DNA of 64,000 nt from Planctomycetia bacterium (GTDB lineage Bacteria; Planctomycetota; Planctomycetia; Gemmatales; HRBIN36): assembly GCA_016795155.1 (NCBI GenBank), contig JAEUIE010000053.1, positions 124,001 to 188,000 on the forward strand, given 5' to 3'. The notes beneath the pieces were generated by a model that ran no database searches, was not told the origin of the DNA, and saw nothing but the letters and a program-made list of their open reading frames with translations. Position numbers and translations under genes: made by a program. Below, piece by piece: positions 28,217 to 31,948 of this stretch. Positions within the stretch are counted from its first letter, which is position 1. Each line of letters begins with the position of its first letter.

Positions 28217-28362
28217 GATGTTTGACTGTTTGAACATTGATCGTCACGGGGGAGGGAACTCCAGAAAGAAGTACTGATGCTGAGTTGATTGAGCTTTTGC
28301 CGATTCAGCCGTCTTCTTTCATAGACATAGTGTGTCACGCGCCGTTGGGAAACCACGGCGAG

Positions 28363-29214
28363 ATGTCTGAGGTGAATGTCCAGCCTGATGTGTGCAAGCT
28401 CCGTCTTCGTTTTTCGAAGGCCGGAGATATTCGATTTCTCAGCCACCATGATCTCATGAGGCTGATGGAACGATTGATGCGTCGCGCACAAATCCCTTTC
28501 CGGTCAACGGAAGGTTATAATCCCAAACCCAAGATTACTTTTGCCAGTGCCCTCAGTCTTGGCATTGTGGGACACAAGGAAGTTGTTGAACTCGAACTGG
28601 ATGGTAAGCATGATGCGGTCCGGGTGTTGATCACATTGAATGAGCTCGCGCCGGAAGGGTTGGACTTTTTGTCAGTAGATACCGTTCCTGTTCGCAGTAC
28701 TGCTCAGCCTGTACGCGCCATCTATTTCTATCCGCTGCCTCCGGTATATCGTCCGGACATCAGCGATCGCTTGTCGCAACTGATGCTGAGTGACACGCTG
28801 GTCATTGATCGTATCCGCAATGTATTGCAGGCCCCGGCCAGGGCAGAACCTTTGGCAGAAGAACGCCTTGACGCATTGACCACCGCTGAACCTCTGATGA
28901 CCCGTGTTGAGGTCAAGAAACTGGACATCAAGCCGTTCATACATCGTCTCTGGCGAGACAGCCAGGGATATTGGATGGACGTTGCTATTACCAATCACGG
29001 AGCTATTCGCCCCGAAGAATTGCTCCGTCTGGTAGATTTGGAAAACCACATGCTCGATGGCGAATCCGTCCTCGAGCGTACCGAACTGTTCCTGGAAGAC
29101 GAGTTGCCAGCCGCGAAACCGGCTGTTTCATCCGGTGCTGTACCTTGTCTTAAGCAAGGCGACCTGCAGGAACCTACTTTAACCCAAGTACCGGTTGTAT
29201 ACCGGTCTGTTTGA
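28363..29214 (+). CDS. DUF2344 / TIGR03936 radical-SAM-linked protein
   Basis: A 284-residue DUF2344 protein: the family start LRLRFSKAGDIRFLSHHDLM, then FRSTEGYNPKPKITFASALS and LGIVGHKEVVELEL. In many bacteria this family is adjacent or fused to a radical SAM protein and sits next to the RNase E/G gene; its function is not established. Here no radical SAM partner is in the window, but RNase E/G follows after ten bases, preserving half of that neighbourhood. TTG 28237 would add 42 residues of unlikely sequence; ATG 28363 is chosen because the domain begins directly after it. Confidence 0.85.
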   Translation: MSEVNVQPDVCKLRLRFSKAGDIRFLSHHDLMRLMERLMRRAQIPFRSTEGYNPKPKITFASALSLGIVGHKEVVELELDGKHDAVRVLITLNELAPEGLDFLSVDTVPVRSTAQPVRAIYFYPLPPVYRPDISDRLSQLMLSDTLVIDRIRNVLQAPARAEPLAEERLDALTTAEPLMTRVEVKKLDIKPFIHRLWRDSQGYWMDVAITNHGAIRPEELLRLVDLENHMLDGESVLERTELFLEDELPAAKPAVSSGAVPCLKQGDLQEPTLTQVPVVYRSV

Positions 29215-29224
29215 GAAAGAAACA

Positions 29225-31948
29225 ATGACTCCCGAATATCAACGTCCCGTAACCCGTAAACGCGTTCGCAAGGAAATGCTGATCAACGCTATTCCAACTG
29301 AAGAAGTGCGCATTGCCATCATGGAGGATGGAGTACTGGAAGAACTGTACGTAGAACGTTCCACCCAGGAAAGTTTTGTTGGCAACATCTATCGTGGAAA
29401 AATTGTCAACATTGAACCGAGCATACAGGCTGCATTTGTGGACTTTGGCGTAGGCCGAAATGGCTTCCTGCATGTATCTGATGTGGATCCACAGTATTAC
29501 AAACATCTGACAGAAGGTAACGATAGACATCGTAAGGATAACCTGCTTGATGTTCTTGACATCCCAGAAATCTCTCTGGAGGAAGAAGAAGCGCTTGAGG
29601 CAAGCGCATTGATGGATGACGATGATGAGGAAACCATCGAGACTGTCGAAATCATTGAGGATCAAAGCGATGAGGAAGTGACTCTCGAAGACGAATATGT
29701 TCCACCTGAGAGGCCTCGATCACGACGCTCTTCATTTGAAGATTCCAGGGGCGGCGGATCACGTACTGGTCGTTCGCGAGATAGAGATTCACGCCACTCG
29801 CATGACAGGTCTGAACGAGGCCATCGTGAAGGGAATCGCTCACATGGTCGAGATCGGCAACAGCCGGTGATTGCTCCTCCTGCAGTTAAGGAAACGCAAA
29901 TCATCGAGCCAACACCAACAACAATCACACATATTAAGCAGAATGTAACAGAGCCGCCAGCCAGCGGGTTCGGATTCGGGATTTTATTTGAACCGGCTTC
30001 CGATACCGAAGTACAGGCTGATCGCGTTATCACGGAATCTGTACCCGCTTTACCTGTCGAACCCCATTTGGGACTTTCGTCTCAGTTCGAACAACCTGTA
30101 TATTCACAAGAGAAAATTACAACCAATGCCTCGTCGTTTGATTTGGAAGACTTCAGCTTTCCATCAATCGATCAATCACCCTCTGCAGTGCCAATGCCAG
30201 CAGCGGAAAGAAAGACGGAAGAAACGACAATAGAGTTGGATGCCTTTGATGTGAGCTTTGCATCAATGAAAGCACCAGAATCGCCTGTTTTTCCAGAATT
30301 TGGCCATGAGCAAACAAGCAAGCTCAGTAATGAAATACCTGATGTAGAAATTGATACTGGAGTTTCTCAACCAATTGATGAAGTCATTCCTCATTTTGAT
30401 CGAGGCGAAGAACCTGAGTCTTCCATTCCGACTTTCAATCGCGAAATGGTAGATGAGCCTATTCAGTTTGATGAATCCACTGAAAGCGAGCTAAGTGAAG
30501 AAGCATCACCACATACTCGTGAATATGGCGCTAGGCGTCCTCGATCCGGTGGCCGTGATCGTGATGGCAATCGCGGACGTGGAAATCGTGGAGGTTTTCA
30601 ACGAAGTGGTCCTGGCGGAGATCGCCGGCAGCGAAATACCAGTCGGGATTTTGGCCGTGATGGTCCTAATGCAGCTCCCAAGCCTCCTATTCAGGAAATT
30701 TTCCGAAGAGGTCAGGAAGTACTGGTGCAGGTTATCAAGGAAGGTATCGGCACCAAGGGGCCAACCTTGTCCACTTACATCAGCATTCCAGGGCGTTACC
30801 TGGTCGTTATGCCTGGCCTCAGTCGTATTGGTGTCTCTCGCAAAATAGGTGATGAACAACAACGTCGCCGACTTCGCAACATCCTACAGGATTTGCAGCC
30901 ACCACGCGGGTTGGGGTTCATCATCCGTACTGCCGGCTTGGATAGAACCAAGAAAGAGTTGCAGCGCGATCTGGCATACCTCACACGATTGTGGCGGGTG
31001 ATTGCCAATCGTATTAAGAAATCCCGCGGTCCAGCTCCGATTTATCAGGAAAGTGACATTATCACTCGAACGATTCGCGATATTTTCAACAATCATATCG
31101 AAAAGATTCGTGTGGATGAACCGGTTTCCTATCAGCATGCTCATGAGTTCATGCAGTTTGTCATGCCTCGTTATGCAGACAGGCTGGTGCTTGAGCAGGG
31201 GCTTGAACCACTCTTCCACCGGTTTGGTATCGAAGCAGAAATTGGGAACATTCAGAACAAACGGGTTCCACTCGCTAACGGTGGTTCACTGGTGATTGAT
31301 CAGACGGAAGCACTTGTTGCCATTGATGTCAACTCCGGCCAGTTCCGCCAGGAAAGTGATGCCGAGGAAAACGCTTACCAGATGAACCTGGCTGCTGCCA
31401 AGGAAGTGGCTCGACAACTCAGGCTTCGTGATCTTGGAGGTGTGATCGTCATCGATTTCATCGACATGCGCGAAGAACGGCATCGCCGTGAAATTGAGCG
31501 AGCACTTCGCCTGGCGATAAGCCGTGACCGAGCACGAACCAAGGTGCTGCGCATGTCCCAGTTTGGCATCATACAAATGACCAGACAACGCATCAGGCCT
31601 TCACTCAAGCGAACGAATTTTGACGAATGCCCTGCCTGCCGTGCAACTGGCTTGGTCAAAACCGGTGAGACCATGAGCATCGAGGTGATGCGAATGCTCC
31701 AACTGGCAGCATGGCGACCCAATGTGTCACGTGTACGCATTCGAGTTGCCGATACACTGGCACAATACCTGCTTAACCGCAAGCGACGTGAAATTGCCAA
31801 GCTGGAAGAAGAAGGGAAAATCCAGGTCACCATTCTCGGTGTTCCTCAAGCAATGCCTGAAACATTGGAGATTCAATGCCTGGATGAATCTGGTGGAGAA
31901 ATCCGTTTGACTCGTCCACCTGAGCTAAAGAAGAAACAAAGCAAGTAG
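29225..31948 (+). CDS. rne: Ribonuclease E/G with very long insertion in the S1 domain
   Basis: A 907-residue RNase E/G-type endoribonuclease, probably the central mRNA-decay and rRNA-processing enzyme. The S1 domain starts at ~35 (VGNIYRGKIVNIEPSIQAAF, GRNGFLHVSDV), is interrupted from ~98 to ~488 by an acidic then Arg/Gly/Pro-rich disordered stretch, and resumes with FRRGQEVLVQVIKEGIGTKG. The catalytic part has D701 (IDVNSGQ) and Asp residues at 744/747 (VIDFIDM), and the Zn-link cysteines C802/C805 (CPACRATG). No C-terminal degradosome tail is present. ATG 29225 has GAGAAAGAAAC upstream; earlier starts overlap DUF2344. Confidence 0.93.
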   Translation: MTPEYQRPVTRKRVRKEMLINAIPTEEVRIAIMEDGVLEELYVERSTQESFVGNIYRGKIVNIEPSIQAAFVDFGVGRNGFLHVSDVDPQYYKHLTEGNDRHRKDNLLDVLDIPEISLEEEEALEASALMDDDDEETIETVEIIEDQSDEEVTLEDEYVPPERPRSRRSSFEDSRGGGSRTGRSRDRDSRHSHDRSERGHREGNRSHGRDRQQPVIAPPAVKETQIIEPTPTTITHIKQNVTEPPASGFGFGILFEPASDTEVQADRVITESVPALPVEPHLGLSSQFEQPVYSQEKITTNASSFDLEDFSFPSIDQSPSAVPMPAAERKTEETTIELDAFDVSFASMKAPESPVFPEFGHEQTSKLSNEIPDVEIDTGVSQPIDEVIPHFDRGEEPESSIPTFNREMVDEPIQFDESTESELSEEASPHTREYGARRPRSGGRDRDGNRGRGNRGGFQRSGPGGDRRQRNTSRDFGRDGPNAAPKPPIQEIFRRGQEVLVQVIKEGIGTKGPTLSTYISIPGRYLVVMPGLSRIGVSRKIGDEQQRRRLRNILQDLQPPRGLGFIIRTAGLDRTKKELQRDLAYLTRLWRVIANRIKKSRGPAPIYQESDIITRTIRDIFNNHIEKIRVDEPVSYQHAHEFMQFVMPRYADRLVLEQGLEPLFHRFGIEAEIGNIQNKRVPLANGGSLVIDQTEALVAIDVNSGQFRQESDAEENAYQMNLAAAKEVARQLRLRDLGGVIVIDFIDMREERHRREIERALRLAISRDRARTKVLRMSQFGIIQMTRQRIRPSLKRTNFDECPACRATGLVKTGETMSIEVMRMLQLAAWRPNVSRVRIRVADTLAQYLLNRKRREIAKLEEEGKIQVTILGVPQAMPETLEIQCLDESGGEIRLTRPPELKKKQSK

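Follow-up and report, generated by a model that had tools for sequence, protein, structure and literature searches.

The window, a 64,000-nucleotide stretch of a contig (JAEUIE010000053.1) from a planctomycete of Gemmatales type, contains a single, uninterrupted open frame at positions 29195-31948 of the forward strand that encodes an RNase E/G. The ATG at 29225 is the likely start, since it sits eleven bases past the stop (29214) of the upstream gene. This gives a protein of 907 aa, and all residue numbers below use this start. The upstream neighbour (28237-29214) is a DUF2344 gene (PF10105), itself preceded by a PTS enzyme I-like gene. The rne/rng gene is present in single copy in the host genome. 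Features of the gene are listed in Table 1.

Table 1. Features of the RNase E/G gene and its S1 insert (window coordinates; residues numbered from ATG 29225).
Feature	Position	Strand	Basis
rne/rng-family gene, RNase E/G, 907 aa	29225..31948	+	TIGR00757, PF10150; alternative TTG start 29195
S1 domain, first half, residues ~50-92	29372..29500	+	PF00575 at residues 51-90; E. coli alignment; pLDDT ~95
S1 insert, residues 93-484, ~392 aa, mostly disordered (predicted)	29501..30676	+	E. coli alignment gap; pLDDT <50 over 140-480; common site in Gemmatales
D-x-L-x-D-[IV]-L-x-[IL]-P-[DE]-[VI] (105-116), then acidic helix (118-129)	29537..29611	+	By-eye comparison; helix pLDDT ~76-83
Acidic block, residues 117-158	29573..29698	+	Composition; net charge -15 over 121-150
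Arg/Gly/His-rich block 1, residues 163-212	29711..29860	+	Composition
Acidic Pro/Ser-rich linker with short motifs, residues 213-436	29861..30532	+	Composition; no Pfam domain
GFGFGI, copy of the F-[GAST]-x-G-[ILV] motif, residues 248-253	29966..29983	+	Motif match
MPAAERKT, degenerate copy of M-x-[GSA]-[AST]-E-[RH]-R-T, residues 324-331	30194..30217	+	Profile built without the window
Arg/Gly-rich block 2, residues 437-480, adjoining second S1 half	30533..30664	+	Composition
S1 domain, second half, residues 485-517	30677..30775	+	Aligns from E. coli 83 onward; pLDDT 84-96
RNase E/G catalytic core, PF10150, residues 520-789, with Asp701 and Asp744	30782..31591	+	Pfam; alignment
Zn-link CPAC (Cys802, Cys805) and thioredoxin-like domain PF20833, residues 802-884	31628..31876	+	Pfam; invariant Cys

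The protein belongs to the RNase E/G (Rne/Rng) family; it matches profile TIGR00757 with an E-value of 4e-145 (483.8 bits against a cut-off of 326), and both PF10150 (331.6 bits) and PF20833 were also matched. The catalytic residues Asp701 and Asp744 align with the AIDIN and VIDFIDM segments of E. coli RNase E. Together with the Zn-link residues Cys802 and Cys805, they are invariant in 79 planctomycete sequences. Judged by this conserved Asp pair and the Zn-link cysteines, the window protein is a catalytically intact RNase E/G. Scores for the two narrower equivalogs fell below their cut-offs, at 393 bits for RNase E (NF008074, cut-off 908) and 411 bits for RNase G (NF008689, cut-off 594). The gene stops 23 residues past PF20833, leaving a C-terminal tail of ~20-30 aa. 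With no long non-catalytic C-terminal region, the enzyme is not an RNase E proper, the equivalog that carries a C-terminal scaffold. The preliminary description was thus right to report that the usual degradosome scaffold is missing.

The extra length of the protein lies within the S1 domain. In a phmmer alignment, residues 13-92 match E. coli RNase E up to position 78, and residues 482 onward match from position 83. Hence, ~390 residues of the window protein take the place of ~5 in E. coli. The preliminary description had proposed an S1 domain split by an insertion of about this size; the alignment gap, and the common insertion site in all Gemmatales measured, bear this out. Its coordinates for the insert (29519-30690) were accurate to within ~18 bases. 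The Glu/Asp block, two Arg/Gly(/His) blocks and long acidic/Pro stretch that it listed are all evident from composition.

We modelled the protein with AlphaFold from a 79-row alignment that included relatives with short inserts; a 31-row alignment of Gemmatales only modelled the S1 domain poorly. Both S1 halves and the core were predicted confidently (pLDDT 88-98 for residues 11-90 and 84-98 for residues 481-890). For residues 140-480 the pLDDT was 33-49, and this region is predicted to be disordered. One acidic helix, at residues 118-129, was modelled with moderate confidence. A Foldseek search with the model returned E. coli RNase E as the top match, and Caulobacter structure 4OXP for the S1/5'-sensor part. 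No folded known domain was seen in the insert, either in the AlphaFold model or by Pfam searches of 31 proteins (the window protein and 30 relatives), in agreement with the earlier reading of the sequence.

The distribution of the insert was determined by taking rne from ~200 planctomycete loci and measuring the S1 loop; counts refer to the non-redundant set. Every one of 37 Gemmatales proteins has the insert (median 397 aa, range 154-503). In seven Isosphaerales-like proteins (Paludisphaera, Aquisphaera and kin) the median is 617 aa (range 595-637), and 13 other proteins have long inserts of 120-309 aa. Short S1 loops were found in 91 proteins (median 35 aa, range 7-102); in Pirellulales and Planctomycetales, which belong to the same class, the loop measures 25-91 aa. 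On a tree of the core, all Gemmatales rows form one clade (support 94) and long inserts require seven changes. Thus, the loop grew more than once, separately in several planctomycete lineages.

These data also bear on the origin of the insert. It had been suggested that the scaffold moved from the C-terminus into the S1 loop. We rejected this relocation. Short-insert relatives (~525-630 aa) lack both features, the scaffold tail and the long insert, and so have no scaffold to move. Furthermore, family f27 (L116, L117, L147-L150) has both an S1 insert of 233-290 aa and a C-terminal tail of 250-384 aa. The tail after the core profile has a median length of 45 residues in Gemmatales and 22 in short-insert proteins. 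What is supported, in place of a move, is a scaffold-like IDR in the S1 loop.

Three further observations concern other family members. The one f27 tail that was read, from L147, is basic and has PAKKAAKK-type repeats. At L120-L123, L126-L128 and L131, the RNase E/G open frames extend ~230-600 residues before the S1 region, taking start codons as read; these extensions are perhaps N-terminal disordered scaffolds. In genomes of family f62 (e.g. G142, G160 and G176) PF10150 matches as two weaker pieces, which suggests that RNase E/G is split or strongly diverged there.

We examined the charge pattern and short motifs of the inserts. Charge segregation gave z = 6.7 for the window insert, with a median of 5.2, and exceeded 3 in 53 of 66 inserts. 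Hence, the window insert has the alternating charge blocks in a disordered region that are a trait of BR-body RNase E. Arg-Gly pairs are concentrated towards both ends; the median RG/GR density was 0.053 for the first quarter of the insert, fell to 0.007 across the middle half and rose to 0.109 over the last quarter. The motif F-[GAST]-x-G-[ILV] occurs in 19 of 37 Gemmatales inserts (40 copies; 1.1 expected by shuffling) and in 7 of 7 Isosphaerales-like inserts (0.2 expected), and in none of the 104 others (91 short and 13 other long). A second motif, M-x-[GSA]-[AST]-E-[RH]-R-T, is present once each in 27 of 37 Gemmatales inserts (0.01 expected) and is absent from the Isosphaerales-like, 91 short and 13 other long inserts. 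When a profile of the M-x-S-A-E-R-R-T module was run against 19 genomes, there was one clear match per genome, only in rne.

By sequence, the window's copies of both motifs are weak and degenerate. For GFGFGI, 6% of shuffles yield the F..G pattern and 0.03% yield GFGxG[IL]. MPAAERKT was picked by a profile built without the window and ranked second of 2001, one of 2000 shuffled inserts scoring higher. A module match in the window at E 1e-6 was discarded as circular, because the window sat in the profile alignment. In the same family as the window, L062/L063, L066 and L069 carry neither motif in their inserts of 154-216 aa. Hence, the motifs are not essential to this family. The Isosphaerales-like inserts (L168, L171-L174, L179 and L189) have invariant segments of their own, DLPPSRT and RAGEPGYxPRRER, and a predicted acidic helix, IDxELExEI...LEREMGxR, that is also invariant. 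Taken together, disorder, charge segregation, RG-rich ends and conserved short motifs are the properties expected of a scaffold or RNA-condensate region.

The genome encodes candidate degradosome partners, namely PNPase and several DEAD-domain proteins. Its PNPase (804 aa; L256:608-3022 (-), contig G000:C68) has an RGG-rich disordered C-terminal tail. Among Gemmatales, 18 of 28 PNPases have at least four RG, compared with 4 of 25 in other planctomycetes. The tail tracks phylogeny, and is present also in f4 relatives with short inserts. It fits a shared RNA-condensate chemistry, confounded by phylogeny; for the same reasons, we rejected it as proof of co-condensation.

We consider it probable that the S1 loop is an internal scaffold and RNA-binding loop, with roles in RNA binding, self-association and partner docking. 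The loop exits the barrel beside the RNA-entry face, so that each monomer of the expected tetramer would extend a long, flexible arm with both of its ends fixed to the enzyme. Arg/Gly-rich segments near the two roots of the loop may bind RNA non-specifically by the S1/5'-sensor channel. The negatively charged parts, the acidic helix and the middle of the loop, would act as competitors of RNA or as partners of the basic blocks, both within and between molecules, and this could produce an RNA-tunable self-association. Mid-loop, the F-[GA]-x-G-[IL] and M-x-[SG]-A-E-R-R-T motifs are putative docking sites for partner proteins. Thus, the loop would perform, within the catalytic domain, the job of the C-terminal tail of E. 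coli and Caulobacter RNase E.

An acidic helix next to the S1 barrel could alternatively be the functional element. In this case the insert would be a regulatory gate: the helix would imitate RNA and lie back across the RNA channel, a mechanism already suggested for the S1 insert of Caulobacter, with the remainder serving as spacer and as RG-rich bait for RNA. The insertion site is shared with Caulobacter 4OXP, where the insert is acidic and partly helical, and the helices protrude into the RNA site (PMC4245959). In the window protein the modelled helix at residues 118-129 is acidic, and the acidic D-x-L-x-D-[IV]-L-x-[IL]-P segment just past the first S1 half recurs, by eye, in the window's own family, albeit shortened in two members. 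However, confidence in the helix is only moderate. A gate also needs just ~50-150 residues, which leaves inserts of 390-640 residues, the mid-insert motifs and RG blocks towards both ends unexplained. Hence, we regard a gate as an unlikely account of the insert.

Neutral growth would mean that a surface loop tolerant of change varied in length through drift and low-complexity expansion; its composition would be constrained, but it would have no specific function. We consider this rather improbable. OB-fold loops of this type can lengthen freely. Consistent with drift, length spans 154 to 637 aa, the insert sequence is mostly not alignable among relatives, and the separate lengthenings implied by the core tree are also as expected. 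Conversely, the motifs far exceed their shuffled expectation in both Gemmatales and Isosphaerales-like inserts, most inserts are RG-rich at both ends and strongly charge-segregated, and none of the 37 Gemmatales has lost the insert. Nor was there a tandem-repeat array in the window rne gene. An artefact (an assembly or frame error, or a two-gene fusion at the locus) is refuted by the relatives and can be set aside: the frame is open throughout, GC at codon position 1 stays as high across the insert as in the flanks, and the architecture, found in all 37 Gemmatales and so not a local sequence error, recurs in dozens of independent assemblies, single-contig genomes among them.

Published descriptions place RNase E scaffolds in free tails at the C-terminus. 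The internal scaffold reading can be taken further, though we do so tentatively. Possibly, the Gemmatales and Isosphaerales degradosome is assembled from inside S1, with F-[GA]-x-G-[IL] repeats and M-x-[SG]-A-E-R-R-T docking lineage-specific partners, and RG and acidic blocks driving RNA condensates, as a platform with an evolutionary origin independent of the C-terminal one. If true, an order-wide planctomycete group has an equivalent hub inside the RNA-binding domain, and a degradosome platform can evolve elsewhere in the enzyme. Partners and condensate chemistry would then sit right at the substrate entrance. The motif sequences are concrete baits for planctomycete RNA-decay partners.

Within the literature searched for RNase E together with Gemmata or Planctomycetota, no paper dealt with this insert. 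In 2011, planctomycete RNase E/G proteins were listed as 509-588 aa, without scaffold (PMC3071783), which fits the short-insert relatives. The window enzyme shares its core domains, and the absence of a C-terminal scaffold, with RNase G and these short enzymes, the form present in most planctomycetes; it differs from the latter in its long insert, their S1 loops being 7-102 aa in the measured set.

Parallels are found in alpha-proteobacteria and plants, where S1 inserts of RNase E are 50-150 aa, charged and predicted to be disordered (PMC4245959). A Caulobacter RNase E fragment containing the insert binds RhlB (PMC4245959). In the alignment, the window insert occupies the identical S1 point to that of Caulobacter crescentus RNase E (PDB 4OXP) and is likewise charged and acidic. 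As a charged disordered insert between E. coli positions ~78 and 83, it is of the Caulobacter/plant type, whereas at 392 aa it lies outside the size reported for that class. The Caulobacter insert is ~66 aa, compared with ~390 in the window and up to 637 in relatives. Unlike the Caulobacter and plant (Arabidopsis) inserts, the planctomycete insert carries lineage-specific motifs and, towards each end, an RG block. Caulobacter RNase E also has a C-terminal scaffold, which the window enzyme lacks.

That scaffold offers a second comparison. The charge-block disordered C-terminal tail of alpha-proteobacterial RNase E forms condensates (PMC10412687, PMC12691583), and in Caulobacter these condensates, driven by the alternating charge blocks, recruit PNPase and stimulate it (PMC10412687). 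Like the degradosome tails of E. coli and Caulobacter (BR-bodies), the window insert is long and predicted to be disordered, with charge blocks, short conserved motifs and Arg-rich RNA-binding-like segments, although no known scaffold motif was recognised in it. The tails are free and follow the catalytic domain, whereas the window insert is an S1 loop tethered at both ends. The architecture that the preliminary description called different is in part known already, since Caulobacter and plant RNase E carry shorter inserts at this site. The insert enlarges a feature of a kind already described; its size, composition and motifs are new.
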